Source: Nitrosophilus kaiyonis (GTDB lineage Bacteria > Campylobacterota > Campylobacteria > Campylobacterales > Nitratiruptoraceae). Taken from it: a stretch of 64,000 nucleotides of DNA. The stretch is taken from positions 248,001-312,000 of the forward strand of contig NZ_AP025696.1 in assembly GCF_027943725.1 (NCBI RefSeq). Reading direction: 5' to 3'. Made by a program: the position numbers and the translations under genes. The notes under the pieces were generated by a model, which saw only the letters and a list, made by a program, of their open reading frames with translations, was not told where the DNA came from and did no database searches. Shown in pieces: positions 677 through 33,637 of this stretch (the first letter of the stretch is position 1; every line of letters begins with the position of its first letter).

Positions 677-695
677 CCGGCAAAAGCCGATTAAA
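672..695. terminator. Bidirectional terminator-like hairpin between pabB and the FapF-like gene
   Basis: Ten-base arms (672-681 and 686-695) pair with one mismatch around an AAAA loop. The hairpin overlaps the stop codons of both convergent genes and is bordered by A/T-rich sequence on each side, so it could terminate both transcripts. No long T-run follows it. Confidence 0.55.
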
Positions 696-1773
696 ATCTT
701 ATAGGATATCTCACTTCAAATACAAAATCTGGTGCATCCGAAGTTAGACCCATTCCAAGATTGAAGTTTAATGAACTATTTTCAGATAGTGCCCAACCAG
801 CTGTTAATTTAAATATACCAGAATTTAAGTTTGTATTTGTAACTTTCTTTTTCCCCTCTTCAGCAGTCCAAATATAAGTTGACATTGTCAAATCATCTTG
901 AAATTGAAAGCCAAGAGAAAAATTGTAAGAAACCGCATAAGAAAATCCCATAACTATAGAGATGGTATCGCCAGCATCAACTTTTTCTAACCCATGTTTT
1001 TTAGGTGGGGTAGAAGCATTTTTATCATCATCTATATAATATGTTTTATCAACATTCTCTTTTATATTATATGCATAAGAAATACCACCAAAAACAACAA
1101 CTGGATCTATTGTTTTTGCAAGATTTACACCAAACTTGACTGCATAATAACCGCTTCCTAAAGGGAGATCTTGCATCTCACCATTTTCATCAACATCGAT
1201 ATCAAATGGGCTTTTTCCATTTTTAAATTTAAAACTCAAATTTGTAATAACTGCAGGTCTAGTATCTGTTTCTCTTATTGGCTGATAACTAAGTCCTACA
1301 CTAATATCACCCAGACCAAATTGATCTTGTGTTTTTTCCTCTTCTTCATTACCAGAACCTGTTGTACCAATTTTTGAATATCTATCATGTCTATATATTA
1401 TAGGTACAGATATCTCACCTTGAAGATTATCCAAAAATCCATATCTTAGTGTCATAGTGTCACTAAAAATGTGTCTTCTAATATTTTCTACACCAAATTC
1501 ACCAACTGTTAAAAATACTGGATCAAGTATTGCAAAACTTGCTAGAAAAATCTGATTTGCAGAGTTATATGTCCAAGAGAAGTTATTTTCAAACTCTTTT
1601 TGACCCTTTTTTAATAGTATATAGTCTCTTTCAAACTGGCTTAAAACCTCTTTTGGCTGAGACTCTTTTTTTAATGCCTCTTTTAGCTCTTTTTTAGTTG
1701 GTTCCGAAGCAAATAAAGAACTAGTGAGCAATAAAGATGAAACTAATATAACTGCAAACTTTTTTATCCCCAT
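691..1773 (-). CDS. Putative outer-membrane beta-barrel protein, FapF-like amyloid exporter
   Basis: A 360-aa protein with a signal peptide (about residues 1-23, ending SSLLLTSSLFA), then a charged, probably helical or coiled segment (about 24-58, rich in K/E), then a long run of alternating amphipathic strands (VFGGISYAYNI, SIVMGFSYAVSYNFSLGFQFQDD) that closes with an aromatic C-terminal strand ending RYPIRF, typical of outer-membrane barrels. Helix-then-barrel is the layout of FapF, the pore that exports Fap amyloid subunits in Pseudomonas. The gene lies 62 bp downstream of the C39-like protease gene on the same strand and probably shares its promoter. By sequence alone it could be any MetA-type barrel; the exporter role is inferred from context. 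Confidence 0.65.
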   Translation of the reverse strand: MGIKKFAVILVSSLLLTSSLFASEPTKKELKEALKKESQPKEVLSQFERDYILLKKGQKEFENNFSWTYNSANQIFLASFAILDPVFLTVGEFGVENIRRHIFSDTMTLRYGFLDNLQGEISVPIIYRHDRYSKIGTTGSGNEEEEKTQDQFGLGDISVGLSYQPIRETDTRPAVITNLSFKFKNGKSPFDIDVDENGEMQDLPLGSGYYAVKFGVNLAKTIDPVVVFGGISYAYNIKENVDKTYYIDDDKNASTPPKKHGLEKVDAGDTISIVMGFSYAVSYNFSLGFQFQDDLTMSTYIWTAEEGKKKVTNTNLNSGIFKLTAGWALSENSSLNFNLGMGLTSDAPDFVFEVRYPIRF

Positions 1774-1835
1774 ATAATCTCCCTTAATTAAGATTTTACA
1801 TATTTTAACCTAAATAAAATTTTTTAATTCTTAAA

Positions 1836-2549
1836 TTAAAACTCTTTAGGGGACCTAAACATTTGAATCTGCTGATTTAATAGTAAACTTCTTAATTTTT
1901 CTGAATTGACCATTATTTCATCTTCTTTACTTATTTTAAGTTTATTATCTATTTTTTTACTTTTTGGTTCTATTATAAGTGCAATATTTCTAAACCATAT
2001 TTTTTTAAATTCACTTATTGATACTATAGTATTTCCTAAAGCTGGATCAGCTAAAAAAACTCTACCTTTATATACTCCTCTAAAGACAACAAAATGTTTA
2101 TATTTCCCAAGTACTATTGCTACTATAGCTGGTTTTCCAAGTTCAACAAGGCCCTCAATATCTGTTTTATATCCTAAAACTTTATAACCTTTCGCATTAG
2201 CAAATTTTTTAATATCTAAAAGAGAAAATCCTCTATTTTTTATAATATTTCTCTTATTTCCATATTTAAACAATCCTTCAACTGCTTCTTTTTCACTTAT
2301 TGGATCATTTAGGTAAAAATTAAAAAGTGTAGCGCAAGTGGCAGAACCGCAGCTAAAATCAAATTTCTGTTTTATAACATTTTTTGATTTTATCTCATCT
2401 TGAGATTTAACTTTTGGCCTTATCATTATTGAGCCAAAACCTGTATTTATGTAAACTGGTACTGTTGCATGTTTAAGTTTTTTATTTTCTGCATTTCCTA
2501 TGTTTATAATGAAAAAGAGTATTATAATAGCCTTTAAAAATTCTCTCAT
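1836..2549 (-). CDS. C39-like cysteine protease, FapD-like
   Basis: A 237-aa protein with an N-terminal signal or anchor segment (IIILFFIINIGNA) and a peptidase-C39-like domain. The motif KQKFDFSCGSATCATLF carries the likely catalytic Cys67; KHFVVFRG gives His152 and FLADPALG gives Asp168, the usual C39 triad order. In Fap systems FapD is such a protease and is needed for fibre secretion. The start at 2549 is chosen because AAGGTGG lies just upstream; an in-frame GTG at 2558 overlaps that ribosome binding site. It has its own promoter (2574-2606) and is followed by the barrel gene. Processing of the nearby amyloid subunits is inferred. Confidence 0.72.
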   Translation of the reverse strand: MREFLKAIIILFFIINIGNAENKKLKHATVPVYINTGFGSIMIRPKVKSQDEIKSKNVIKQKFDFSCGSATCATLFNFYLNDPISEKEAVEGLFKYGNKRNIIKNRGFSLLDIKKFANAKGYKVLGYKTDIEGLVELGKPAIVAIVLGKYKHFVVFRGVYKGRVFLADPALGNTIVSISEFKKIWFRNIALIIEPKSKKIDNKLKISKEDEIMVNSEKLRSLLLNQQIQMFRSPKEF

Positions 2550-2573
2550 AATGGCCACCTTTTATTTTTTTAT

Positions 2574-2606
2574 ATTATATACATAAAAAATGCAGAAATA
2601 TTGCAG
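2574..2606 (-). promoter_or_regulatory. Promoter and heptamer operator of the C39 protease-barrel unit
   Basis: Read on the minus strand: CTGCAAT (2600-2606), 4 bp, CTGCATT (2589-2595), 9 bp, then a perfect -10 hexamer TATAAT (2574-2579), with the start codon about 25 bp further on. Two direct heptamers with an 11-bp period in place of a -35 box are typical of OmpR/PhoB-type activator sites. The same layout occurs upstream of both large amyloid genes and the diguanylate cyclase gene. Confidence 0.7.
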
Positions 2607-2622
2607 AAGATAGGACTTCTGC
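2603..2622 (-). terminator. Hairpin terminator after minor amyloid gene, copy 1
   Basis: A perfect 7-bp stem (GCAGAAG / CTTCTGC) with a 6-base loop lies just after the stop codon of the 130-aa gene; downstream sequence on the minus strand is AT-rich. Its distal arm shares bases with the operator of the next transcription unit (2600-2606). Confidence 0.6.
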
Positions 2623-2626
2623 TTTA

Positions 2627-3019
2627 TCATTTAACTGCAGCATTTAGTATATTATTTACATTTATGCCGCCACCTAAATGTGAATTTAATACTATAACTA
2701 TATTTATAGGAACATTCACTGCAGAATTGACAGCATTTACTGGTACAAATGCATTTTGTTGTGCATTCCCGCTTATCATTAGCGAATCTAGCATATTAAA
2801 ATGTCTTGCATTTATCTGTACAAAATCTGTACTTACTCCACCATTACTACTTGGCAAAGAAGCACTATTTATAGCACTATCTATTGTTTGAAAATTCATA
2901 ACAAAACCTTGAGCTGAAATACTCTCTAGCTCATTATCATTTGCCAACTCTATACTGCCAGCATTTGCACCTATTATACATATTGCTGCAGTTATTATGG
3001 AGGCTATTAGCTTTCTCAT
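2627..3019 (-). CDS. Minor amyloid-like secreted protein, copy 1
   Basis: A 130-aa protein with a signal peptide (about residues 1-20, ending ICIIGANA). The mature N-terminus carries NDNELESISAQGF, closely matching SDDALGGVSAQGF in the large amyloid protein, and a later stretch (SGNAQQNAFVPVNAVNSAVN) resembles one of that protein's repeat cores. This suggests a co-secreted minor subunit or nucleator comparable to FapB or FapE, by inference from context. It has no cysteine in the mature part. It differs from copy 2 by one residue (Ile for Val in the SAQGF motif) and has a TGA rather than TAA stop. Its ribosome binding site (AAAGGT) is weaker than that of copy 2. Confidence 0.7.
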   Translation of the reverse strand: MRKLIASIITAAICIIGANAGSIELANDNELESISAQGFVMNFQTIDSAINSASLPSSNGGVSTDFVQINARHFNMLDSLMISGNAQQNAFVPVNAVNSAVNVPINIVIVLNSHLGGGINVNNILNAAVK

Positions 3020-3028
3020 GTCATACCT

Positions 3029-3367
3029 TTATTTTTTTGAAGATTTAACAACATCTCCACAAACTTGATATAAAATCACACCTTTTTCATAATTGCCCCA
3101 TTTAAATCTAATATTTATATATCCGTCAGCTTTTTTAGAATAAACTTTTCTAACTTTTTGAATAGAAGCAGTTAAGGCTCTGTTTAAAACTTTCATAACA
3201 TCTTTTTTATTTTTGATTTTGATCAAATATCCATAACATATATTATCTATTACTTTATAGGATGTAAATCCACCATTACCAAATGAAACAGCAAAATATT
3301 TAGTAGATGCATTAATACTACCTGTTAAAATAGCTAAAAATAAAATTAGTTTTAGAAATCTGAGCAT
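3029..3367 (-). CDS. Secreted 112-aa protein of unknown function in the amyloid locus
   Basis: The protein has a signal peptide (about residues 1-20, ending TGSINA) and a compact mature part with two cysteines (NICYGY and YQVCGDVV) that could form a disulfide. The segment KADGYINIRFKWG loosely resembles the GADAVVNVRF core of YbjQ/RcsF-like folds, but this is too weak to assign a family. It lies between the large and minor amyloid genes of copy 1 only; copy 2 lacks it. It could be an amyloid chaperone, a minor fibre component or an unrelated insertion. Confidence 0.65.
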   Translation of the reverse strand: MLRFLKLILFLAILTGSINASTKYFAVSFGNGGFTSYKVIDNICYGYLIKIKNKKDVMKVLNRALTASIQKVRKVYSKKADGYINIRFKWGNYEKGVILYQVCGDVVKSSKK

Positions 3368-3384
3368 ATTTATCTCCTTATAAA

Positions 3385-3405
3385 GCCAAGGGGAGTCCCC
3401 TTAGC
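3385..3405 (-). other. Intercistronic hairpin after large amyloid gene, copy 1
   Basis: Arms 3385-3393 and 3397-3405 form a 9-bp stem (one G-U pair) with a 3-base loop, directly after the stop codon and before the next gene's ribosome binding site. No T-run follows, so partial termination or protection of the mRNA 3' end is more likely than full termination. That would favour large-subunit over minor-subunit output. Confidence 0.6.
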
Positions 3406-3407
3406 TA

Positions 3408-5027
3408 TTAATAGTTAACTGCAGTTTGGATATTTGTTTGAGTCAATGTTCCGCTATATCCATTTACTAATCCCATAACATTTTGACCAACATTAACTGC
3501 AGATCCAGCCGCATTTGTTAGAGCCATTCCCATTGCATTTGCTTGTGCATTATCATTTAGTTGAACAGAACCATTATTTGCATGAACTTCGCCATAATTT
3601 AGATCAAACAAGATATCTGTATCAACATTTATCTCAAGTCCAAGTTGTCCATTTATGCTTCCATCTTCTGCATATTGATTATTTACTTGAGTAACATCAC
3701 CACCACTGCTATCGATAATGCCTGCAACATTTTGTCCAACGTTAACTGCACTTGAAGCACTGTTTGTTACAGCCATTCCTCTAACAAACATTTGTGCAGC
3801 ATCATTTAATTGAACAGATCCGTTATTCATATTTTGTCTATCAATATCAATGCTTATACCTGGGTCATCAACATCAAGGTCAACTTGTAATCCACCTTGA
3901 CCGTTAACTCCATAATTTACAGCTTCTTGATGATTTTTTTGAGTTATATCATTTGGAATAGCTTGAGTTGTAGAATCAACTACTCCAACAACATTTTGTC
4001 CAACATTTGCCGCACTGCTTGCTGCATTTGTTATTGCCATTCCAGCTGCATTAAATTGAGCATTATCATTTAATTGAGTAGAACCATTATTGATATTTTG
4101 TCTATCTAAATCAACATTGAAAGCATATACTTGTACATCAACATCGCCTTGAGCAGCTAATTGAGCATTAATTCCATTGTTTTCAGCATATTGTCTGTTT
4201 CTTTGTTCTATATCATCTACGCTGCTATCAACAACACCAAGAACATTTTGACCAACATTAGCAGCACTTGAAGCGCTATTTGTAAGAGCCATTCCTCTTG
4301 CAAATGCTTGTGCATTGTCATTTAATTGAACTGATCCATTATTTATATTTTGTCTATCAAAATCATAACTTCCCCACCACCATGTATCTATATTTACATC
4401 TACATCAGCTTGAAGAGCAAGTTGACCATTTACTCCATCTTGAACAGCAGTTTGAGAATTTACTTGTGTTACATCATGAGTATCCATAACATCAGTGCTA
4501 TTAACTAATCCAGCAACATTTTGTCCAACATTTGCCGCACTGCTTGCTGCATTTGTTACAGCCATTCCAGCAACACTCTCTTGTGCATTGTCATTTAACT
4601 GAGCTGATCCGTTATTGATATTTTGTACATCAGCTAAAATACCAAACCATAAGCTGTAATCAACATCAAGCTGTCCAGCTAATTGACCGCTTGCCTCAGA
4701 ATTTTCAGCATTTTGTCTGTTAGTCTGGCTTATTTCACCCCAACTAAAAGTATCTGTAACACCTGCAACATTTTGTCCAACGTTAACTGCACTTGAAGCA
4801 CTGTTTGTTACAGCCATTCCAGCTGCACCAATTTGAGCATTATCGTTTAATTGAACTGAGTCATTATTTATATTTTGTTCACTTCCACCAGCTACTTGAG
4901 CAGCAACTTGAAAACCTTGAGCACTAACTCCACCTAATGCATCATCGCTTAATACTTCCGCCATTACCATTGGTGAAGATACCATTCCAGCTAATAATGC
5001 AGCCGCTAAAATCTTTCTTCCTCTCAT
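3408..5027 (-). CDS. Repeat-rich secreted amyloid-like protein (FapC-like), copy 1
   Basis: A 539-aa protein starting at 5027, where GGAGG precedes the ATG; the frame is open 13 codons further upstream but without a good site. The signal peptide ends SSPMVMA, followed by EVLSDDALGGVSAQGF. The rest is six imperfect repeats of about 85 aa. Each opens with a core like QNINNGSVQLNDNAQ, continues GMAxTNAASSAxNVGQNV, then a second core (ITQxNxQxA...NGQL) and an acidic linker. There is no cysteine; Asn, Gln, Ala, Ser and Val dominate. This Q/N-rich repeat-linker layout is that of functional amyloids such as FapC. With a C39 protease and a barrel exporter next door, secretion and fibre formation in the matrix are likely. 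Confidence 0.78.
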   Translation of the reverse strand: MRGRKILAAALLAGMVSSPMVMAEVLSDDALGGVSAQGFQVAAQVAGGSEQNINNDSVQLNDNAQIGAAGMAVTNSASSAVNVGQNVAGVTDTFSWGEISQTNRQNAENSEASGQLAGQLDVDYSLWFGILADVQNINNGSAQLNDNAQESVAGMAVTNAASSAANVGQNVAGLVNSTDVMDTHDVTQVNSQTAVQDGVNGQLALQADVDVNIDTWWWGSYDFDRQNINNGSVQLNDNAQAFARGMALTNSASSAANVGQNVLGVVDSSVDDIEQRNRQYAENNGINAQLAAQGDVDVQVYAFNVDLDRQNINNGSTQLNDNAQFNAAGMAITNAASSAANVGQNVVGVVDSTTQAIPNDITQKNHQEAVNYGVNGQGGLQVDLDVDDPGISIDIDRQNMNNGSVQLNDAAQMFVRGMAVTNSASSAVNVGQNVAGIIDSSGGDVTQVNNQYAEDGSINGQLGLEINVDTDILFDLNYGEVHANNGSVQLNDNAQANAMGMALTNAAGSAVNVGQNVMGLVNGYSGTLTQTNIQTAVNY

Positions 5028-5072
5028 CTCATCCTCCTTCTGTTTTTTAGGTCTTTCAACCCTCACATTGAA

Positions 5073-5105
5073 ATTATTGCAAAGAAGATTGCAGATAAAT
5101 TGCAG
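5073..5105 (-). promoter_or_regulatory. Promoter and heptamer operator of amyloid copy 1
   Basis: Minus strand: CTGCAAT (5099-5105), 4 bp, CTGCAAT (5088-5094), 9 bp, then AATAAT as -10 (5073-5078). A third, near-matching TTGCAAT overlaps the -10. The stretch is identical to 7324-7356, so each amyloid copy carries its own promoter. Confidence 0.7.
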
Positions 5106-5202
5106 TTTATAAATTAATTTAAATAATGGAAGTAAGAATAGAAATAAGTATTTTGATATTAAATTTTAAGAATTTTAAAATGAAGTTAAATGAAGATATA
5201 AA

Positions 5203-5222
5203 GCAGAAGATAGGACTTCTGC
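5203..5222 (-). terminator. Hairpin terminator after minor amyloid gene, copy 2
   Basis: The same 7-bp stem and 6-base loop as at 2603-2622, just after the TAA of the second 130-aa gene. On the minus strand a T-rich stretch (TTTATATCTTC) follows. It separates this unit from the promoter of copy 1. Confidence 0.6.
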
Positions 5223-5226
5223 TTTA

Positions 5227-5619
5227 TTATTTAACTGCAGCATTTAGTATATTGTTTACATTTATGCCGCCACCTAAATGTGAATTTAATACTATAACTA
5301 TATTTATAGGAACATTCACTGCAGAATTGACAGCATTTACTGGTACAAATGCATTTTGTTGTGCATTCCCGCTTATCATTAGCGAATCTAGCATATTAAA
5401 ATGTCTTGCATTTATCTGTACAAAATCTGTACTTACTCCACCATTACTACTTGGCAAAGAAGCACTATTTATAGCACTATCTATTGTTTGAAAATTCATA
5501 ACAAAACCTTGAGCTGAAACACTCTCTAGCTCATTATCATTTGCCAATTCTATACTGCCAGCATTTGCACCTATTATACATATTGCTGCAGTTATTATGG
5601 AGGCTATTAGCTTTCTCAT
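5227..5619 (-). CDS. Minor amyloid-like secreted protein, copy 2
   Basis: A 130-aa protein identical to copy 1 except for Val in the mature N-terminal motif (ESVSAQGF). The start at 5619 follows AGGAGG at a normal distance; the frame extends 7 codons further upstream, but those codons overlap the ribosome binding site. It has a signal peptide and the amyloid-like stretch SGNAQQNAFVPVNAVNSAVN. It sits directly downstream of the large amyloid gene copy 2, in the order of a major and a minor fibre subunit, with a hairpin between. The subunit role is inferred from the shared N-terminal motif and the location. Confidence 0.7.
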   Translation of the reverse strand: MRKLIASIITAAICIIGANAGSIELANDNELESVSAQGFVMNFQTIDSAINSASLPSSNGGVSTDFVQINARHFNMLDSLMISGNAQQNAFVPVNAVNSAVNVPINIVIVLNSHLGGGINVNNILNAAVK

Positions 5620-5635
5620 GTTTTCCCTCCTTTGA

Positions 5636-5656
5636 GCCAAGGGGAGTCCCCTTAGC
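5636..5656 (-). other. Intercistronic hairpin after large amyloid gene, copy 2
   Basis: Same hairpin as 3385-3405 (9-bp stem, 3-base loop), here placed only a few bases before the AGGAGG of the minor amyloid gene. It may set the ratio of major to minor subunit. Confidence 0.6.
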
Positions 5657-5658
5657 TA

Positions 5659-7278
5659 TTAATAGTTAACTGCAGTTTGGATATTTGTTTGAGTCAATGT
5701 TCCGCTATATCCATTTACTAATCCCATAACATTTTGACCAACATTAACTGCAGATCCAGCCGCATTTGTTAGAGCCATTCCCATTGCATTTGCTTGTGCA
5801 TTATCATTTAGTTGAACAGAACCATTATTTGCATGAACTTCGCCATAATTTAGATCAAACAAGATATCTGTATCAACATTTATCTCAAGTCCAAGTTGTC
5901 CATTTATGCTTCCATCTTCTGCATATTGATTATTTACTTGAGTAACATCACCACCACTGCTATCGATAATGCCTGCAACATTTTGTCCAACGTTAACTGC
6001 ACTTGAAGCACTGTTTGTTACAGCCATTCCTCTAACAAACATTTGTGCAGCATCATTTAATTGAACAGATCCGTTATTCATATTTTGTCTATCAATATCA
6101 ATGCTTATACCTGGGTCATCAACATCAAGGTCAACTTGTAATCCACCTTGACCGTTAACTCCATAATTTACAGCTTCTTGATGATTTTTTTGAGTTATAT
6201 CATTTGGAATAGCTTGAGTTGTAGAATCAACTACTCCAACAACATTTTGTCCAACATTTGCCGCACTGCTTGCTGCATTTGTTATTGCCATTCCAGCTGC
6301 ATTAAATTGAGCATTATCATTTAATTGAGTAGAACCATTATTGATATTTTGTCTATCTAAATCAACATTGAAAGCATATACTTGTACATCAACATCGCCT
6401 TGAGCAGCTAATTGAGCATTAATTCCATTGTTTTCAGCATATTGTCTGTTTCTTTGTTCTATATCATCTACGCTGCTATCAACAACACCAAGAACATTTT
6501 GACCAACATTAGCAGCACTTGAAGCGCTATTTGTAAGAGCCATTCCTCTTGCAAATGCTTGTGCATTGTCATTTAATTGAACTGATCCATTATTTATATT
6601 TTGTCTATCAAAATCATAACTTCCCCACCACCATGTATCTATATTTACATCTACATCAGCTTGAAGAGCAAGTTGACCATTTACTCCATCTTGAACAGCA
6701 GTTTGAGAATTTACTTGTGTTACATCATGAGTATCCATAACATCAGTGCTATTAACTAATCCAGCAACATTTTGTCCAACATTTGCCGCACTGCTTGCTG
6801 CATTTGTTACAGCCATTCCAGCAACACTCTCTTGTGCATTGTCATTTAACTGAGCTGATCCGTTATTGATATTTTGTACATCAGCTAAAATACCAAACCA
6901 TAAGCTGTAATCAACATCAAGCTGTCCAGCTAATTGACCGCTTGCCTCAGAATTTTCAGCATTTTGTCTGTTAGTCTGGCTTATTTCACCCCAACTAAAA
7001 GTATCTGTAACACCTGCAACATTTTGTCCAACGTTAACTGCACTTGAAGCACTGTTTGTTACAGCCATTCCAGCTGCACCAATTTGAGCATTATCGTTTA
7101 ATTGAACTGAGTCATTATTTATATTTTGTTCACTTCCACCAGCTACTTGAGCAGCAACTTGAAAACCTTGAGCACTAACTCCACCTAATGCATCATCGCT
7201 TAATACTTCCGCCATTACCATTGGTGAAGATACCATTCCAGCTAATAATGCAGCCGCTAAAATCTTTCTTCCTCTCAT
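5659..7278 (-). CDS. Repeat-rich secreted amyloid-like protein (FapC-like), copy 2
   Basis: Residue-for-residue the same 539-aa protein as the one at 3408-5027: signal peptide ending PMVMA, the SAQGF N-terminal motif and six Asn/Gln-rich repeats of about 85 aa with aspartate-rich linkers (for example LDVDYSLWFG and ADVDVNIDTWWW). The start at 7278 follows GGAGG. It has its own promoter (7324-7356) divergent from the diguanylate cyclase gene, and is followed by a hairpin and the minor subunit gene. Two identical genes may double the dose of a structural protein; identity at DNA level points to very recent duplication or gene conversion. Confidence 0.78.
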   Translation of the reverse strand: MRGRKILAAALLAGMVSSPMVMAEVLSDDALGGVSAQGFQVAAQVAGGSEQNINNDSVQLNDNAQIGAAGMAVTNSASSAVNVGQNVAGVTDTFSWGEISQTNRQNAENSEASGQLAGQLDVDYSLWFGILADVQNINNGSAQLNDNAQESVAGMAVTNAASSAANVGQNVAGLVNSTDVMDTHDVTQVNSQTAVQDGVNGQLALQADVDVNIDTWWWGSYDFDRQNINNGSVQLNDNAQAFARGMALTNSASSAANVGQNVLGVVDSSVDDIEQRNRQYAENNGINAQLAAQGDVDVQVYAFNVDLDRQNINNGSTQLNDNAQFNAAGMAITNAASSAANVGQNVVGVVDSTTQAIPNDITQKNHQEAVNYGVNGQGGLQVDLDVDDPGISIDIDRQNMNNGSVQLNDAAQMFVRGMAVTNSASSAVNVGQNVAGIIDSSGGDVTQVNNQYAEDGSINGQLGLEINVDTDILFDLNYGEVHANNGSVQLNDNAQANAMGMALTNAAGSAVNVGQNVMGLVNGYSGTLTQTNIQTAVNY

Positions 7279-7323
7279 CTCATCCTCCTTCTGTTTTTTA
7301 GGTCTTTCAACCCTCACATTGAA

Positions 7324-7356
7324 ATTATTGCAAAGAAGATTGCAGATAAATTGCAG
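7324..7356 (-). promoter_or_regulatory. Promoter and heptamer operator of amyloid copy 2
   Basis: Minus strand: CTGCAAT (7350-7356), 4 bp, CTGCAAT (7339-7345), 9 bp, then AATAAT as -10 (7324-7329), about 45 bp before the start codon. A third TTGCAAT (7327-7333) overlaps the -10. The heptamer pair is an exact inverted match to the pair at 7442-7459 that serves the divergent cyclase gene. Confidence 0.7.
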
Positions 7357-7441: not shown

Positions 7442-7474
7442 CTGCAATTTATCTGCAATCTTTTTATTTACAAT
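7442..7474 (+). promoter_or_regulatory. Promoter and heptamer operator of the diguanylate cyclase operon
   Basis: CTGCAAT (7442-7448), 4 bp, CTGCAAT (7453-7459), 9 bp, then TACAAT as -10 (7469-7474), with the ATG 25 bp on. There is no separate -35 box. The spacing is the same as at the three amyloid-locus promoters, so one activator probably drives all four. Confidence 0.7.
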
Positions 7475-7489
7475 TAAATATACGATTAA

Positions 7490-7664
7490 AGGAGCGGTTA
7501 TGGAACAATTTGCCCATTTCACAAACTCTTCTATAACAAACAGCCAAAATCTTGGCAATTCTCTTCTGGATGAAATCCGATACTTCTTTCAAAGGCTCTC
7601 TTTTAAAAGACCTCCTGATTCTTTTACAAAAAATGGGCAAATGACAAAGAAAAAAACCGCTCCT
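7490..7664. repeat. Inverted-repeat-bounded segment (MITE-like or long RNA stem) at the cyclase 5' end
   Basis: Outer arms AGGAGCGGTT (7490-7499) and AACCGCTCCT (7655-7664) are perfect complements, as are inner arms TTTGCCCATTT (7509-7519) and AAATGGGCAAA (7631-7641). Together they read as imperfect terminal inverted repeats of about 30 bp on a 175-bp segment. The left arm contains the Shine-Dalgarno sequence of the cyclase gene, so as RNA the stem would hide it. No target-site duplication was found. Confidence 0.6.
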
Positions 7665-8573
7665 ATTTCTAAAAATGAACTTTTGAATAGTGAAGTTTTT
7701 ATGGAGATATTTGATTTTTGTAATGAGCTTATTTATATAAAAGATTTAAATTTTAGATATATATGGTTCAATAATAAATTTAAAAAAATTTTTTTAGAAA
7801 AAGTATCAGATATTAAAAAAATAGATGATTTTGATATTTTTGATTATGATTTTGCATACAAATTAAAAAAAACTGAAAGATATGTTGTTTTAAATAAAAC
7901 ACCTGCATTATTTGATTATAACTATTTAGATAAATTTTATCATATAAAAATTGTTCCTATAAAAAAAGATAATATTCTTATAGGTATTGCTGGAATCATC
8001 GAAGATAGAACAGAATTTAAAAGAAAAGTAGATGATTTGTTAGAATTAAATGAATACCTAAAAAAAAGATGTACAATTTTTGAAAACTTATCAATGATAG
8101 ACCCATTAACTCAAGTATATAACAAAAGAAAATTCAATAACATATTAGAAAAAGAGATAGAAAGAGCAAAAAGATATAATGAACCTTTATCTTTAATCTT
8201 ATTCGATATAGATAATTTTAAAAATATAAACGATAAATATGGGCATTTAACAGGAGATATTGTATTAAAATCAATAATTGATTCGGTAAAGTCTAATATT
8301 AGAAAAATTGATATCCTATCTAGAATCGGTGGTGATGAATTTGCAATAATTGTTCCAAATACAAATATTGAAAATTCAATCAATCTTGCAAGAAAATTAA
8401 ATAGTGATATTGAAAAAATAAAAATTAAAAATATAAAAGAGAAAATTAGCTGTAGTTTTGGGGTGGCTGAGTATAAAAAAAATGAAAATTTTACAGATTT
8501 TTTTAAAAGAGCTGATAATGCTTTATATAAATCAAAAAAAGAGGGAAAAAATAGGATATCATTTATAAAATAA
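7500..8573 (+). CDS. PAS-GGDEF diguanylate cyclase
   Basis: A 357-aa cytoplasmic protein. Residues 1-60 match nothing I recognise and are encoded by the inverted-repeat-bounded segment; about 66-175 form a PAS-like sensor domain (LIYIKDLNFRYIWFN, IAGIIEDRTEFKRK); about 197-357 form the GGDEF domain. The active site is intact (RIGGDEFAI, 277-281) and an RKID inhibitory site (Arg268-Asp271) lies five residues before it, so c-di-GMP synthesis with product feedback is expected. It is transcribed divergently from amyloid copy 2 with a matching operator, and 15 bp before a histidine kinase gene. A role in switching on matrix production is inferred. Confidence 0.88.
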   Translation: MEQFAHFTNSSITNSQNLGNSLLDEIRYFFQRLSFKRPPDSFTKNGQMTKKKTAPISKNELLNSEVFMEIFDFCNELIYIKDLNFRYIWFNNKFKKIFLEKVSDIKKIDDFDIFDYDFAYKLKKTERYVVLNKTPALFDYNYLDKFYHIKIVPIKKDNILIGIAGIIEDRTEFKRKVDDLLELNEYLKKRCTIFENLSMIDPLTQVYNKRKFNNILEKEIERAKRYNEPLSLILFDIDNFKNINDKYGHLTGDIVLKSIIDSVKSNIRKIDILSRIGGDEFAIIVPNTNIENSINLARKLNSDIEKIKIKNIKEKISCSFGVAEYKKNENFTDFFKRADNALYKSKKEGKNRISFIK

Positions 8574-8588
8574 AAATTAGAGGATAAA

Positions 8589-10751
8589 ATGAAATATTTT
8601 AATGAGGAAAAACTTCCTCTTTTAAATTTTATAAGTAATATATTTATTATATTTTTATTAATGATATCCATAGGATATATTTTAATAATAAAAGAGTATA
8701 ACGATTTTAAAATCAAATCGAAAAATATAGAAAATGAATTTAAAGAAGAGTATAGAAAAAGATTAAAAACAGAAGTTGATAGGGTTGTTGACTATATAAA
8801 CTACTATAAATCTCAAACTGAATATAGACTAAAAAATGAGATAAAAAATAGAGTTTATCAAGCCAATGATATTGCCACATATATATACAACAAATATAAA
8901 AATTTAGAAGATTCAAAAAAAATAAAATCAAGAATAAAAGATGCATTACTTCCTATTAGATGGCGAAATGGTTATAGTTACTTATGGATAGTTGATACAA
9001 ATGGAACTGCTGTACTTTTTCCAATTAATCCAAATATTGAAAATCAAAATATTATTGATTATAAAGATGCAAATGGAAGATATATATTAAAAGAGGCAAA
9101 AAATATTGTTTTAAATCAAAATGAAGGATATATAACAAAAATATTTGTTACTCCTCCAAATAAAAAAGAGCTTTTTGAGCAAATAGCCTTTGTAAAACTT
9201 TTTAAACCTTTCAATTGGATAATAGGAACTGGCGAAACCTTAAATGATATAGAAAAAGATATAAAACAAGAGATTTTAAAAAGAGTTTATTATATGAGAT
9301 TTAACAAAGAGGGTTATTTTGGTGTAATAGATTTTGAAGGAAATATTTTATGTCATCCTTTTATAAAAAGAGGTACAAATATATTAAAAACAGACAATAA
9401 AAAGTATAAAAAAATTGGTGAAAAACTTATAGAAATAGGCAAACAAGGTGGTTTTTTGACATATGACTTCAGAAAATTAACATCAAACAAAATTGCAAAA
9501 AAACTTACATACACAAAATCTATAAAAGATTGGGGATGGATAGTTTATGCAGGAATTTATCTGGATGATTTGCAAAAAAAGATTTTGGATAAACAAAAAG
9601 AACTTGAAAAAGAGTTAAATGAGAAAATAAAAATACTTCTTTTTATATTTGGATCCTTTTCTTTACTTGCTCTTTTATTATCATTAGCTTTTTCTAATAA
9701 ACTTAATGCAATTTTTGAAAATTATAGAAAAAAGATAGAGTATAGAACAAAAAGACTTGAAAAATTGAATGAAGAGTTAAAAGAGAAAGAGAAGCAAGCA
9801 CAAGCTGCAAGTAAAGCAAAAACTATATTTATTTCAAATATATCCCATGATATAAGAACACCTTTAAATGCTATACTTGGTTATGCACAAATTCTTAATA
9901 AAGATGTAAATTTAGATGAGATTCAAAAAGAGAAAATAAATAAAATATTAAAACATGGAAACTATCTGCTTGAACTTTTAGATGATATTATAGAAATATC
10001 AAAAATAGAAACTGGGAAAATTGGTATAAATGAAGAAAATTTTGATCTTAAAAAATTTTTAGAAAATATTAAGGAAATGTATGAGGATAAAGCAAAATCA
10101 AAAGGACTTAAATGGGACGTAATAGGAATACCCAAAAAAGAGACTTTTGTTAAAGGTGATAAGAAAAAACTTTTTAGAGTTTTGATAAATCTTTTAAGTA
10201 ATGCTTTTAAATATACAGATTCTGGAGAGATAAAATTAATAATCACTCCTAAAGAAAATAATGTGTATGAGTTTTCTATAATTGATACAGGTATTGGTAT
10301 AGAAAAAGAGGAACAAAAAAACATATTTGAAATATTTACACAAGCAAAATCTGGGCAAGAAAGAGGAGGTAAAGGTCTTGGTTTATCAATAGCATACAAA
10401 TATATAAAATTAATGGGTGGGGAGTTAAAACTTGAATCTGAGCCAAGAAAAGGAAGCAAATTCTATTTTGAAATAAAACTAAAACCATCAATAGAAAAAA
10501 AACAAGAAATTAAAAAGAGTGAAGAAAATTATAAAAAACAAAATATTGAAAATATTTCAAATAAATTTACCATAGAAAAAAAATTAAAAGAAAAAATTAT
10601 AAATTTAGCAAAAATGGGAAATATAACAAATCTTAAAAAAGAGATAACCAATATAGAAAATCAAAATTTAAAAAATAGGCTTTTTGAATATATTAATAGC
10701 TTTGATTTAGAAAATTTGATACTTTTTTTAAATAGCATAAAGGAGAAATGA
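8589..10751 (+). CDS. Cache-domain sensor histidine kinase
   Basis: A 720-aa membrane kinase. It has TM1 at about 14-34, a periplasmic double-Cache region at about 40-345 (GYSYLWIVDTNGTAVLFP, then GYFGVIDFEGNILCHP), TM2 at about 349-369, then a coiled linker. HisKA carries FISNISHDIRTPLNAILGY with His420; the ATPase domain has NLLSNAFKYT (Asn538), DTGIGI and GKGLGLSI. No receiver follows; instead residues 660-720 form a helical tail like the C-terminus of the hybrid kinase at 12847-15042. It may therefore be a hybrid kinase that lost its receiver. Its last codons overlap the next gene (ATGATG). It probably senses a small extracytoplasmic ligand. Confidence 0.88.
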   Translation: MKYFNEEKLPLLNFISNIFIIFLLMISIGYILIIKEYNDFKIKSKNIENEFKEEYRKRLKTEVDRVVDYINYYKSQTEYRLKNEIKNRVYQANDIATYIYNKYKNLEDSKKIKSRIKDALLPIRWRNGYSYLWIVDTNGTAVLFPINPNIENQNIIDYKDANGRYILKEAKNIVLNQNEGYITKIFVTPPNKKELFEQIAFVKLFKPFNWIIGTGETLNDIEKDIKQEILKRVYYMRFNKEGYFGVIDFEGNILCHPFIKRGTNILKTDNKKYKKIGEKLIEIGKQGGFLTYDFRKLTSNKIAKKLTYTKSIKDWGWIVYAGIYLDDLQKKILDKQKELEKELNEKIKILLFIFGSFSLLALLLSLAFSNKLNAIFENYRKKIEYRTKRLEKLNEELKEKEKQAQAASKAKTIFISNISHDIRTPLNAILGYAQILNKDVNLDEIQKEKINKILKHGNYLLELLDDIIEISKIETGKIGINEENFDLKKFLENIKEMYEDKAKSKGLKWDVIGIPKKETFVKGDKKKLFRVLINLLSNAFKYTDSGEIKLIITPKENNVYEFSIIDTGIGIEKEEQKNIFEIFTQAKSGQERGGKGLGLSIAYKYIKLMGGELKLESEPRKGSKFYFEIKLKPSIEKKQEIKKSEENYKKQNIENISNKFTIEKKLKEKIINLAKMGNITNLKKEITNIENQNLKNRLFEYINSFDLENLILFLNSIKEK

Positions 10752-11165: not shown

Positions 11166-11813
11166 TTATTTTATAATATATCCTACTCCTCTGACATTTT
11201 GGATAATTTTATTACCTATTTTTTTTCTAATATCTCTAATATGGCTCGAGATGGTTTTATAATCAATTAATTCATCTCCATATACAAAGTCAGCAATTGT
11301 GTCAAAAGTTACAACATTTCCTCTATTTTTTAAAAGAATATATAAAATATCATTCTGTTTTTTTGAAAGAATAACTGGTTCTTTATTTTTAAAAAGAGTT
11401 CTTGAATCAAAATTGTATTCACACTCTTCATCTATTTTAATGTTATCTTCTTTATGAAATTTTGATAAAATATTTTCCATTCTAAGTTCTAACTCGGCAA
11501 GCTCAAAGGGCTTTTTGATATAATCACTTGCCCCCATTTTAAAAGCTTTTTTTATATTTTCAATATCTGAATAAGCACTTATAAAAATAACAGGGGTATT
11601 TATATGTTTGCTTTTTATATACTCTAAAATCTCATAACCATTATAATTTGGCACATTTATATCCAATATAAAAAAATCATAATCATAAAGATTTGCGTTA
11701 TCTAAAAGCTCTTCTCCATCAGCAAAAGCATCAACTTTATAACCTTTTAATTCAAAATATTTTTTTATATGTTTTCTTAAAAGATGGTCATCTTCTAACA
11801 AAAGTATTCTCAT
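11166..11813 (-). CDS. OmpR-family response regulator
   Basis: A 215-aa two-domain regulator: receiver at about 1-120 with acidic pocket EDD, phospho-acceptor Asp51 (FILDINVP), conserved Thr/Ser position (VIFISA) and Lys at YIKKPF; winged-helix DNA-binding domain at about 130-215 (SKKQNDILYILLKNRGNVV, ISSHIRDIRKKIG, VRGVGYII). OmpR-type regulators bind tandem direct repeats about 11 bp apart, which is the arrangement at the four promoters of the amyloid and cyclase genes. It is the last gene of a three-gene minus-strand unit with the hybrid and REC-kinases (4-bp overlaps) and so is their probable output. Confidence 0.9.
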   Translation of the reverse strand: MRILLLEDDHLLRKHIKKYFELKGYKVDAFADGEELLDNANLYDYDFFILDINVPNYNGYEILEYIKSKHINTPVIFISAYSDIENIKKAFKMGASDYIKKPFELAELELRMENILSKFHKEDNIKIDEECEYNFDSRTLFKNKEPVILSKKQNDILYILLKNRGNVVTFDTIADFVYGDELIDYKTISSHIRDIRKKIGNKIIQNVRGVGYIIK

Positions 11814-12850
11814 TCAGTTTCTCTTTTAAAACAGTATTCAAAAGTAGTTAAACCATTTTGAGAATCTACATCAACTAATACATCATTTTTTTTACATATC
11901 ATTCTAACTATGTCTAAACCTAAACCTAATCCAATCTCATTATCATCTTCTCTATATAGCATATTAAATATTTTATCAAGATTTTTTATAGTTTTTCCTT
12001 TATCAGTTACAGATATGCATACCCTATCATCTTTATCAAAAAGCTCTATATCTATAGTACTTTTTTCATCACCATATTTTAATGCGTTAGAGATTGTATT
12101 ATCTAAGATTCTTTGTAATTCGGTAGGATTTATATAAATAACTGGATTTTTAGAATTATATTTTGTTTTAAAATTCATCTCTTTTGTTTTAGCAATAACA
12201 TTAAAATATTTAATTCTATTTTCTATCATATTTTTTATATTTACAGGCTCTGGTTCAAAACTATATATCTCTTTTTTTAATGAATAGTATATATCTTCAT
12301 AAACTGTATGCAATGAGCGAGATGCAGCTTTAATACTTTGTAGATATTCTGTATCGCCATATTCTAAAATCTGCATTTCAACTGCAGTATCTATAACACT
12401 TAAAGGAGTATATATCTCATGAAAAGCTTTTTTTATCAAATCATTCATAGCAAGTATCATTTTACTTGTATGAAGATGAGTTTTTACTCTTGCTAAAACT
12501 TCCAAATGGTTAAAAGGCTTACTTATATAATCAACTCCTCCAATTTCAAAAGCTTTAACTTTATCTTCTGGACTATTTAATGCAGATAGAAAAATAATTG
12601 GAATATCCTTAAGTTCAACATTTTCTTTGATTTTTTTACAAGTTTCATAGCCATCAATGCCTGGCATCATTATATCAAGTAAAATCAAATCTGGCTTTAT
12701 CTTTGGGGCTATTTCAAGGGCTTTTTCTCCTGAAGTTGCAACAAATATCTGATACCCTACAGGTTCTAAAGTTTCCATTAAAAGTGCCAAGTTTTCGGGT
12801 GTATCATCAACCAGCAATATTTTTGGCTTTATCTGTACATTTTCATTCAT
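11810..12850 (-). CDS. Receiver-histidine kinase protein (REC-HK)
   Basis: A 346-aa soluble protein: receiver at about 8-125 with Asp59 (LILLDIMMPGIDGYE) and Lys in ISKPFNH, then a short histidine-kinase core with FHEIYTPLSVI (His144), ISNALKYG as N-box and IGLGLGLDIV as ATP lid. There is no sensor domain, so it probably takes phosphate from the upstream hybrid kinase and relays or modulates the signal to the OmpR-type regulator. Its ATG overlaps the hybrid kinase gene by 4 bp, and its stop overlaps the regulator start by 4 bp. Similar REC-HK proteins are known as phosphorelay integrators. Confidence 0.87.
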   Translation of the reverse strand: MNENVQIKPKILLVDDTPENLALLMETLEPVGYQIFVATSGEKALEIAPKIKPDLILLDIMMPGIDGYETCKKIKENVELKDIPIIFLSALNSPEDKVKAFEIGGVDYISKPFNHLEVLARVKTHLHTSKMILAMNDLIKKAFHEIYTPLSVIDTAVEMQILEYGDTEYLQSIKAASRSLHTVYEDIYYSLKKEIYSFEPEPVNIKNMIENRIKYFNVIAKTKEMNFKTKYNSKNPVIYINPTELQRILDNTISNALKYGDEKSTIDIELFDKDDRVCISVTDKGKTIKNLDKIFNMLYREDDNEIGLGLGLDIVRMICKKNDVLVDVDSQNGLTTFEYCFKRETE

Positions 12851-15042
12851 TTTTGCCTTTCATTTTTTAATTCTTTAATAATTTTATCAAGTTCAAAATT
12901 TCTAAGATATCTACTTAAAGTCTCTTTTATTTCATCATTTCCAATCTCATCTATTAACTTTCTAAGTTCAGAAATATTTCCTATCTGAGCTAATGAAATG
13001 ATTTGATTTTTTAGATTTTCATCAATTTTTTCAAAGCTTTTCTCTTTTTTTCCAATTTTTTTTGTCTCTTTTGCAAAAAGGTCTGGAAAATATTTTAAAA
13101 AGACTTTATCAAGATCAGATATTTGAAAAGGCTTGGTTATATCATCATTAAAAACATTATATAGATAGCTATTTTTATAAAAGAATGAAGAAGCGGACAA
13201 TGAAACTATTTTAGCATTTTTATCGATATTTTTTATATCTTTAGCCGCTTCCACACCATTTTTATTTGGCATTTTTATATCCATGAAGATTAAATCTGGC
13301 CTATTTTTTTCAAAAAGCTCTACTGCTTCATTTCCATCTTTTGCTTCAATAACTTCTATACCTTTTTGCTCTAAAATATCTTTTAGTACGATTCTATTAT
13401 CTTCTATATCATCAGCAATTAAAACTTTTAATTTTTTTCCATTTTTTAAATTTAAACCATTATCAAAAGACTCATCAGATAATAATTTTACTTTTTTTAT
13501 TTCTCCACAAGGAATTTCAAAGAAAAATCTTGTACCTTCGCCTACTTTTGATTCTACTGTTAAATTTCCTCCTAATAGCTTAACATTACTATTTGCTATC
13601 GCAAGACCAAGCCCTGTACCTCCTCTTTTATAACCCTCTTCATTTTGAATAAATGGCTCAAAAATCTTTTCTAAAAGCTCTTTTTCTATACCAATTCCAG
13701 TATCTTTTACTTCAAAATAGCAAATATTATTATTTTTATATTTAAAAATAAGCTCCACTTTTCCTTTCTCTGTAAACTTTATCGCATTGCCTATGAGATT
13801 TAATAAAATATGAAAAAGTTTTGTTTTATCAGTATAAACAACAAGTTCTTCTTTTGGCATACCTTTAATTTTCCAGCCAATGTTTTTATTTTCAGCTCTT
13901 ACTTTAAAAATTTGAAAAAGACTTTTAAACATATTTGTTAAATTAAACTCAACTAAATTTACTTTATTTTTTCCCATTTCCATTTTTGTAATATCAAGAA
14001 TATCATTTATCAAATCAAGTAGATGACCGCCTGCAATAAGTATGGATTCAACCATTCTTTTTTGTCTATCATTAAGTGAGCTTTCATTTTTTAAAATTTG
14101 AGAATAACCTAAAATCGCATTTAAAAGTGTTCTAATTTCATGTGAAATATTAGATAAAAATATACTTCTTGCTCTATTTGCCTCTTCTGCCTCTTTTTTT
14201 GCTTGTTCTGCTTTTGCTTTAAGCTCTTCAGCAATTCTTTTCTGTTTTAATAGTTTTTTTTGATACTTTTCTCTATCTGTTACATCTATATCAAAACCTA
14301 ATAAATATGCACCATCCTCATCATCAATGTATATAGCATGTTCATCAAGATATTTTGTTTCTCCATTAGGTTTTTTTATTCTATATGTAATTTTATAATT
14401 TTCTTTTTCTTTTATTGAATTATCAAATACATGTGATACAAAAATCTTATCCTCTATTGCTACCATATCACTTTTTGGAAGAATTTCTGGAGTGTCTTTT
14501 CTTTTATCTAGACCTAAAATCTCAAACATCTCATCACTCCAGTACACCTTCATATCTTCCAGTCTTATCTCCCATATGCCGATTTTTGCTTCTTTTTGAA
14601 TAAGCTTAAAATATTGTTCTATTTTTTTGGTAAAGTCTTCTATTCCTAATTCTTGTTGCATAGATTTTTCAATTAAATTTTTAAGATCTTTTTTGCCATT
14701 TTTAATTCTCATGAGAATCAAACATTCCGAATTTAATTTAAATCTTATTGATTCTATTTGAGTCTCTATTTTTGCTCCATTTTGTAATTTAAAATTGACA
14801 TTGCATTCAACTATATTATCACTTTTTACAATTTTATCTAAGCAAATTTCAATTTTGGATTTATTATTTTTATCTAAAAAATTTAAAAAACTTTTTCTAA
14901 CAATATTCTCAGCAGAATATCCCAATAAATTTTTTACTTTTTCACTTAAAGAGAGTATTGTAAAATCAGGTTTTAATATAAATATATGGTCATTAGAATT
15001 TTTTAATATATTTAGAAGATAGTTTAATTTTTTATTTTCCAA
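12847..15042 (-). CDS. PAS-PAS hybrid sensor histidine kinase
   Basis: A 731-aa soluble hybrid kinase. Order: PAS at about 10-115; a second PAS/PAC at about 150-258 (KIGIWEIRLEDMKVYWSDEMFEILGL and LLGFDIDVTDREKY); a charged coiled coil; HisKA with SNISHEIRTLLNAILGY (His301); ATPase with NLIGNAIKFT, DTGIGI and GGTGLGLAI; receiver at about 538-650 with Asp588 (LIFMDIKMPNKNG); and a helical tail at 670-731 shared with the kinase at 8589-10751. In the H-box the usual Pro after RT is Leu (Leu306), which may shift the kinase/phosphatase balance. The start is a TTG preceded by AGAGG. It is first gene of the unit with the REC-kinase and OmpR regulator. Confidence 0.88.
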   Translation of the reverse strand: MENKKLNYLLNILKNSNDHIFILKPDFTILSLSEKVKNLLGYSAENIVRKSFLNFLDKNNKSKIEICLDKIVKSDNIVECNVNFKLQNGAKIETQIESIRFKLNSECLILMRIKNGKKDLKNLIEKSMQQELGIEDFTKKIEQYFKLIQKEAKIGIWEIRLEDMKVYWSDEMFEILGLDKRKDTPEILPKSDMVAIEDKIFVSHVFDNSIKEKENYKITYRIKKPNGETKYLDEHAIYIDDEDGAYLLGFDIDVTDREKYQKKLLKQKRIAEELKAKAEQAKKEAEEANRARSIFLSNISHEIRTLLNAILGYSQILKNESSLNDRQKRMVESILIAGGHLLDLINDILDITKMEMGKNKVNLVEFNLTNMFKSLFQIFKVRAENKNIGWKIKGMPKEELVVYTDKTKLFHILLNLIGNAIKFTEKGKVELIFKYKNNNICYFEVKDTGIGIEKELLEKIFEPFIQNEEGYKRGGTGLGLAIANSNVKLLGGNLTVESKVGEGTRFFFEIPCGEIKKVKLLSDESFDNGLNLKNGKKLKVLIADDIEDNRIVLKDILEQKGIEVIEAKDGNEAVELFEKNRPDLIFMDIKMPNKNGVEAAKDIKNIDKNAKIVSLSASSFFYKNSYLYNVFNDDITKPFQISDLDKVFLKYFPDLFAKETKKIGKKEKSFEKIDENLKNQIISLAQIGNISELRKLIDEIGNDEIKETLSRYLRNFELDKIIKELKNERQK

Positions 15043-33259: not shown

Positions 33260-33288
33260 TAATTGGTGGAGGTGTCGGGAATCGAACC
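33260..33288. other. attR, right island boundary
   Basis: A 29-bp repeat identical to 17123-17151; from 33264 on it forms the 3' end of the complete tmRNA gene. The island end thus restores the gene it entered. Confidence 0.9.
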
Positions 33289-33637
33289 CGAGTCCAGAAA
33301 CAACCGATATTAGGCCTCTACATGCTTAGTAGCGCTGATTAATCTCGATTTACAAAGGCTCAGCGCCCAAAGCCTTTGTAAATCCAGCCTAAAGGTGTCG
33401 ATAAGCAGCTAGGCAACTGCTTATCCAAGCCCTCTATTTTGTGACCCCGCAAAATCCTAACTCAGAGGGCAGAGTTAGGTGCGAGGGACCAAAATTCGTT
33501 AAACTTACGCAGCTACAGCGTAAGCTGGTCTATAATCTGTATTGTTTGCGTCTATTTTTTTGAGGAGTTTTTACGGCATTCCTCAAGCCGGCATGCAGCC
33601 TAATACCGACTGCTCCTGTCGAAGCCAAGTCACCCCC
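33264..33637 (-). ncRNA. ssrA: Transfer-messenger RNA (tmRNA)
   Basis: A 374-nt tmRNA that rescues stalled ribosomes. The 5' GGGGGUG (33637-33631) pairs with 3' CACCUCC to close the acceptor stem, followed by the encoded CCA. The tRNA-like T-arm reads GGTTCGATTCCCGA. The tag reading frame (33549-33505) encodes ANNTDYRPAYAVAA then TAA, close to the tags of Campylobacter and Helicobacter. Several stems for the pseudoknots are visible (for example AACTCTGCCCTCTGAGTT). It lies 22 bp after trpA, so its promoter should be inside or upstream of that gene. Confidence 0.97.

Follow-up and report, generated by a model that had tools for sequence, protein, structure and literature searches.

In Pseudomonas the functional amyloid system Fap is encoded by the genes fapABCDEF. 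In a survey of 2013 Fap was restricted to Beta-, Gamma- and Deltaproteobacteria (PMC3792158), and a review of 2018 listed FapD+FapF pairs in five further phyla, with the subunits not named (PMC6173800). Two screens of the GTDB in 2025, one of them on GTDB v226 (PMC12822426), required matches to the FapB/FapC repeats. In their texts the subunits almost always have three repeats (three in both FapC and FapB in about 94% of known Fap; PMC12392863), and the phyla named are Pseudomonadota, Desulfobacterota, Nitrospirota and Bacillota, with neither Campylobacterota nor Aquificota among them (PMC12392863, PMC12822426). In the open-access literature we found no report of Fap or of another functional amyloid for Campylobacterota or Aquificota, including Sulfurimonas and Nitratiruptor. 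The substrate of FapD and its cut site are an open question in the field (PMC5557850). Here we describe a locus of Nitrosophilus kaiyonis (Campylobacterota), situated in a window of 64,000 bp (contig NZ_AP025696.1, positions 248,001 to 312,000), which is probably a complete and self-regulated operon for fibre secretion of the Fap type, exporting long Asn/Gln-rich fibre proteins. Since the published surveys search for FapB/FapC repeats, they would miss subunits like these.

On the minus strand from position 7317 to 691 seven co-directional open reading frames (ORFs) follow each other with short gaps, in the transcription order FapC-a, FapB-1, FapC-b, SP110, FapB-2, FapD and FapF (Table 1). An earlier note, made from the sequence of the window alone, had proposed a Fap-like amyloid export locus here and had named the same three proteobacterial classes as the 2013 survey. 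The large secreted Asn/Gln-rich repeat protein, the smaller secreted protein, the C39-like protease and the outer-membrane barrel that it described together are all present at this place. Its count of six genes has to be corrected to seven: the large genes form an exact pair, and the gene for a 112-amino-acid protein, here called SP110, had not been singled out. Three other Campylobacterota and also Aquificota have an operon of the same gene content, a recurrence far beyond chance.

The last gene codes for a 360-amino-acid protein that matched the NCBIfam FapF model NF058560 at 1.8e-52 (178.6 bits, the strict equivalog cutoff being 700) and, with residues 35-360, the solved Pseudomonas FapF structures 5o65, 5o67 and 5o68 at about 1e-38 (best 1.2e-38). 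The barrel was rightly taken for a Fap part and did not turn out to be an unrelated porin. Homology to the FapF crystal construct begins about 12 residues past the signal peptide. As the barrel starts where the construct starts, plug and barrel are retained, and the N-terminal trimeric coiled coil of about 80 residues found in Pseudomonas FapF is missing; it is likewise absent from Vibrionaceae FapF. The preceding gene codes for a 240-amino-acid protein consisting of a C39 domain alone (PF03412, 1.4e-18), with no fused ATP-binding cassette (ABC) exporter. It matched FilB (NF050078) at 8e-48 and FapD (NF058616) at 1.3e-30, both below the cutoffs, far exceeding the best bacteriocin-transporter protease (6e-13). 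The C39 triad/oxyanion pattern is in place with Q64, C70, H155 and D171, as the earlier reading of a complete triad had it, and these residues are invariant in three relatives. Because the FapF and FapD scores lie under the strict equivalog cutoffs, the two proteins are homologues, not orthologues by the NCBI standard.

The protease scores higher with FilB than with FapD. FilB belongs to the Fil system of Acinetobacter (FilA-F), whose annotation is that of a putative pilus system; the locus could be nearer to it than to Fap and make another, poorly known fibre. Both systems have a pair of C39 peptidase and barrel and a small leader-bearing protein; FilA carries a similar leader, DDAALSAATGQDG, and in trees Acinetobacter FilB and FilC fall, unstably and on long branches, within the Aquificota/Campylobacterota group. 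On the other side, the barrel scores higher with FapF than with FilC (1.3e-37, below the equivalog cutoff). Searches with NCBIfam, in which a model for each Fil protein was not confirmed to exist, found no FilA-, FilD-, FilE- or FilF-like genes in the operon. The Fil locus that we read has other substrate proteins and extra downstream genes and contains neither SP110 nor a repeat protein. We regard a Fil-type fibre as very unlikely.

The subunits weigh against a Fap assignment. FapC has six repeats, as the earlier note had counted, with a spacing of 84, 91, 84, 88 and 83 residues and the core QNINNGSVQLNDNAQ..GMAVTNSASSAVNVGQNVAG; by a strict motif count the number varies from 3 to 13 among relatives. 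The mature protein contains 24% Asn+Gln, one Lys and zero Cys and has a net charge of about -43. FapB has one half-repeat at residues 82-113 (7e-5 with the repeat profile). Neither subunit matched the FapB and FapC models NF058557 and NF058558 at E<=1; the controls, FapB and FapC of Aeromonas, scored 8e-22 and 1e-50. The conserved Fap repeat motif GNxGxNxaaG..NqQN is absent from the subunits, and a search of PDB sequences with FapC returned no match. Homology of the repeats to canonical FapC was rejected, as in a profile-profile comparison with the Aeromonas FapC repeats the scores were no better than those of shuffled columns. Matches of FapC to the exonuclease VII small subunit were sub-threshold and were dismissed as due to the repeats. 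FapE, which is needed in Pseudomonas (PMC5557850), found no match (NF058559) among the seven operon proteins, with an Aeromonas FapE control at 2.3e-12. As judged by sequence, the fibre subunits are a separate subunit family that is not recognisable as FapB/FapC. Of the proposed Fap-like identity, the machinery with its profile matches and the recurrence of the operon hold, and the assignment of the subunits to Fap families does not.

An AlphaFold2 model of FapC, built from eight sequences, has an all-beta fold whose strands recur regularly; its mean predicted local distance difference test score (pLDDT) is a modest 62, with 70-87 in the core of the C-terminal half. Residues 289-533 superpose on 150 of the 150 residues of the Pseudomonas FapC fibre determined by cryo-electron microscopy in 2025 (9u4u; Z 8.5, root mean square deviation 2.7 Å). 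The unrelated beta-helical adhesin EtpA reaches Z 9.1 on the same model and other beta-helices 5-7; Foldseek alone gave no match at E<=0.001. The stacked solenoid anticipated for the repeats is predicted, then, and covers the fibre, but does not score well above unrelated beta-helices; the predicted fold is compatible with a Fap-like stacked solenoid, short of proof. A non-amyloid beta-helical surface adhesin, with soluble solenoid repeats exported in a Fap-like manner and forming no polymer, would agree with EtpA as the top structural match and with subunits unmatched to FapC by sequence. It agrees less well with the paired small subunit bearing one half-repeat, as expected of a nucleator, with the coverage of the whole FapC fibre core, with the Asn+Gln-rich composition poor in Lys and Cys and with FapD/FapF homologues known for amyloid export, and we consider it quite unlikely. 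We infer amyloid formation by the FapC-like proteins: outside the cell each repeat of about 85 residues would form one layer of an Asn/Gln-rich beta-solenoid, the layers would stack to an amyloid-like fibre, and the one-repeat FapB may act as nucleator or cap.

With Pseudomonas Fap the locus shares the FapF and FapD homologues, Sec-exported Asn/Gln-rich large and small repeat subunits in one operon and the predicted stacked solenoid. It differs in having six repeats of about 85 residues in FapC and one in FapB, where Fap has three of about 38-52, in the additional SP110, in a FapF without the long coiled coil, in the lack of FapE, in a C39-type leader ending in Ala-Gln on all subunits, in the duplicated fibre genes and in the resident two-component system. 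The locus works like Fap, yet its subunit sequences, its repeat number and the missing FapE set it apart from the canonical members. Curli (Csg) works in a similar way, with a secreted Q/N-rich solenoid fibre and a minor nucleator-like subunit; no Pfam match to the CsgG, CsgE, CsgF or CsgA families was found among the operon proteins or the three flanking regulatory proteins. Fap-like loci of Vibrionaceae and Cupriavidus also combine FapD and FapF with small proteins bearing RGG leaders, and the Vibrionaceae FapF is short and free of the coiled coil; they differ in their subunits, a weak FapE resemblance and a barrel only 26-31% identical. These loci (L027, L029 and L030) lie on Vibrio, Cupriavidus and Photobacterium replicons and have unusual subunits, the leaders of the small proteins ending in RGG.

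Behind the Sec signal the subunits carry a second leader. We compared 23 full-length FapC and FapB proteins, taken from this locus, from the Aquificota loci and from the genomes of three relatives, with the Sec signal peptides judged by eye. Common to all are L, V, I or A at -12 and D or E at -10; Leu at -7, Val/Ile at -4 and Ala at -2 occur in 23/23, and position -1 is Gln in 22 and Lys in one. The 14-residue leader of FapC reads E-V-L-S-D-D-A-L-G-G-V-S-A-Q. The residue after Ala-Gln is mostly Gly and in two cases Phe; therefore AQ, not G, is the fixed end of the leader. C39 proteases are known from LahT and ComA substrates to recognise hydrophobic residues at -4, -7 and -12 in front of a GG, GA or GS end (PMC10885120). 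Because the leader fits this -12/-7/-4 pattern, cleavage by FapD is predicted after Ala-Gln, which occupies the position of Gly-Gly in bacteriocin leaders. The SAQGF motif that the earlier note had found in both secreted proteins is real, and is better read as a C39-type leader end (..AQ/GF) than as a mature N-terminus after signal peptidase. The bacteriocin peptidase-containing ABC transporters (PCATs) likewise have a C39 domain and a leader with hydrophobic -12/-7/-4; here the protease is separate and Sec-exported, there is no ABC transporter, and AQ replaces GG.

With the leader on the fibre proteins and no FapE in the operon, FapD is predicted to act on the fibre subunits themselves. Two published findings speak against this prediction. 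Ala-Gln is not among the documented C39 cut sites (PMC10885120), and Pseudomonas FapB and FapC show no N-terminal processing, the target of FapD there being left open, with FapE as the favoured candidate and possibly FapF (PMC5557850). Both would agree with a reading in which FapD serves as a chaperone or has some other target, for instance the barrel, and the AQ leader stays uncut and signals docking to FapF. The exact hydrophobic spacing in all 23 subunits, the intact catalytic residues of FapD and the operon without FapE make an uncut leader unlikely. For the preferred reading we propose that FapC and FapB enter the periplasm via Sec, as their signal peptides suggest, that FapD would recognise the leader and cut after Ala-Gln, giving a predicted mature start of Gly-Phe, and that the unfolded subunits would traverse the FapF barrel, as shown for the Pseudomonas homologue. 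With a predicted cut site in every fibre subunit, N-terminal sequencing would directly test the FapD substrate question.

All loci that extend far enough have a conserved SP110, which occurs in exactly the same three of 397 sampled Campylobacterota genomes as FapF. No match was found in Pfam or among PDB sequences. Its AlphaFold2 model (pLDDT 85, beta-alpha-beta-beta) resembles YbjQ/DUF74 proteins (3qkb Z 9.5, 1vr4 9.2, 1y2i 8.4; identity 11-16%), from which SP110 differs in being exported and in its two conserved cysteines; the next structural matches belong to the periplasmic RcsF family (Z 6.9-7.1). A second SP110 copy in a related genome (G057, L010:7194-7478) shows no evident signal peptide when read from the first ATG, and both conserved cysteines are gone. 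As they were lost together, the two cysteines may form a disulfide. From its position and export we would guess that SP110 is a periplasmic chaperone or adaptor, which might keep the subunits unfolded or hand them to the pore. No FapA match was seen in the operon in a search run without a FapA control, and SP110 may stand in for FapA, a chaperone that known Fap systems frequently lack.

In three other Campylobacterota (G347, G246 and G344) shorter C39 proteases and short barrels adjoin Sec-exported proteins with textbook GG leaders in the same register, for example LNPEQMSEVRGG. These sets lend independent support to the predicted cleavage and suggest a wider export route from Sec over a periplasmic C39 protease to a barrel. 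We put forward tentatively, at somewhat less than even confidence, that the locus represents a new amyloid family, unrelated to FapC in sequence, on this general route, in which FapD cuts every subunit behind a leader of double-glycine type with Ala-Gln in place of the glycines and so licenses passage through FapF, with SP110 as a new periplasmic chaperone or adaptor of YbjQ fold. A short C39 protease beside Sec-exported GG-leader proteins was seen at L048:6591-7636, L049:3714-6561 and L050:5490-9983 (leaders LSSNQMKEVVGG, LNNSQMSDVKGG and LNPEQMSEVRGG), with a short FapF-like barrel also in L049 and L050; the set looks undescribed as a secretion system. Weak FapF matches in the loci L004 and L006-L008 of other Campylobacterota were rejected as members of this system, since they come from short barrels that go with short C39 proteases and proteins bearing GG leaders.

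FapF was found in four of the 22 genomes of its Campylobacterota family and, in the sample of 397 genomes, in no other Campylobacterota beyond the short pairs. The operon subunit-SP110-FapB-FapD-FapF is shared by Aquificota and the four Campylobacterota, and the nearest relatives outside Campylobacterota are Aquificota. In the FapD tree the Hydrogenothermaceae are sister to the Campylobacterota (support 93/98); the FapF tree resolves less well. The operon was likely transferred between Aquificota and Campylobacterota. Comparison of gene order suggests an ancestral unit C-SP110-B-D-F, as in Aquificota, of which the part C-SP110-B was doubled in Campylobacterota, followed by differing losses in each genome. 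The fap block is placed after pyrB-pabB, where relatives lacking fap have other genes after pabB. One of the four genomes, G399, is a partly contaminated metagenome-assembled genome (6%), so that its placement is possibly a binning error. The locus adds subunits, a regulator and a new accessory protein to what is known of FapD+FapF pairs, and it ties Aquificota to one Campylobacterota family.

The segments 3384-5105 and 5635-7356 are identical over 1722 bp with zero mismatches, including about 40 bp of upstream region, and the FapB-1 and FapB-2 genes share 98.2% identity over 434 bp. The exact fapC pair points to a duplication or a gene conversion that happened recently in this genome. An assembly duplication was rejected as the sole origin of both copies, as relatives also have two fibre genes at the same place, and it may account for the exact identity of the copies here. 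Since the fibre genes of the relatives are mutually diverged, the doubling itself is old.

Upstream of the operon lie a divergent diguanylate cyclase gene and a cluster of regulators (Table 1). The 17-mer TTGCAGATAAATTGCAG, a tandem TTGCAG box, occurs three times in the 1.77-Mb single-contig genome, every time at this locus, with 0.002 copies expected; variants stand at fapC or the divergent promoter in the three other fap-bearing genomes. A full-length ortholog of the dCache kinase and a close one of the response regulator occur in all 4 family members that bear fap and in 0 of the 18 others (nominal p=1e-4, the relatives not being independent samples). This non-independence of related genomes counts against the co-occurrence as support. 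The diguanylate cyclase has the same position in G057 and G386 and is absent in G399. The conserved TTGCAG repeats and the neighbouring two-component system suggest dedicated control. From co-occurrence and conserved boxes, the simplest reading would be one regulator coupling the fibre genes to cyclic di-GMP synthesis, the dCache kinase and the OmpR-type regulator probably turning on fapC and the cyclase gene jointly via the tandem boxes. Cyclic di-GMP genes lie near Aquificota loci too: a GGDEF gene between fapD and fapF in one genome of the Hydrogenothermaceae (L020:7105-7992), with no fapC seen immediately upstream of that operon, and a PilZ cellulose-synthase-like gene and a PilZ-sigma54 activator beside fapF in one of the Aquificaceae (L022:9190-13456).

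Table 1. Features of the fap locus and its regulatory neighbourhood (positions in the window)
Feature	Position	Strand	Evidence or remark
fapF-like outer-membrane barrel with plug, 360 aa	691..1773	-	NF058560 FapF 1.8e-52; PDB 5o67/5o65 1.2e-38
fapD-like periplasmic C39 cysteine protease, 240 aa; Q64, C70, H155, D171	1836..2558	-	PF03412 1.4e-18; NF058616 FapD 1.3e-30; NF050078 FilB 8e-48
FapB-like minor subunit copy 2 (FapB-2), 130 aa, one half-repeat, putative leader ELANDNELESISAQ before GF	2627..3019	-	repeat profile 7e-5, leader alignment
SP110, Sec-exported, 112 aa, conserved; two conserved Cys	3029..3367	-	orthologs in all longer loci
1722-bp segment, exact copy of 5635-7356, gene and promoter	3384..5105	.	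DNA comparison
FapC-like major subunit copy b (FapC-b), 539 aa from ATG 5027, six Asn/Gln-rich repeats of about 85 aa	3408..5066	-	
Tandem box TTGCAGATAAATTGCAG, 62 bp before the start codon of fapC-b (ATG)	5089..5105	+	one of three genome copies
FapB-like minor subunit copy 1 (FapB-1), 130 aa from internal ATG	5227..5640	-	DNA 98.2% identical to copy 2; leader
FapC-like major subunit copy a (FapC-a), 539 aa from ATG 7278; copy b has the identical sequence	5659..7317	-	
Tandem box TTGCAGATAAATTGCAG, 62 bp before the start codon of fapC-a (ATG); conserved in four genomes	7340..7356	+	
Tandem box TTGCAGATAAATTGCAG, divergent promoter of diguanylate cyclase gene, 42 bp before cyclase	7442..7458	-	
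PAS-GGDEF diguanylate cyclase, divergent from fapC-a	7500..8573	+	PF00990 1e-45
dCache sensor histidine kinase	8589..10751	+	full-length ortholog only in four fap-bearing of 22 family genomes
OmpR-type response regulator, candidate TTGCAG-box binder	11166..11813	-	orthologs at 74-81% identity confined to the four genomes with fap; the next best reaches 44%
Receiver and histidine-kinase protein, regulatory cluster	11810..12850	-	synteny
Hybrid PAS histidine kinase/receiver, regulatory cluster	12847..15042	-	synteny

A fourth TTGCAG-N5-TTGCAG with another spacer lies at 60758-60774 of the window, inside the ORF 60095-61507, and is probably due to chance. The window also contains a tmRNA gene at 33264-33637 on the minus strand (Rfam RF00023, 2e-81).

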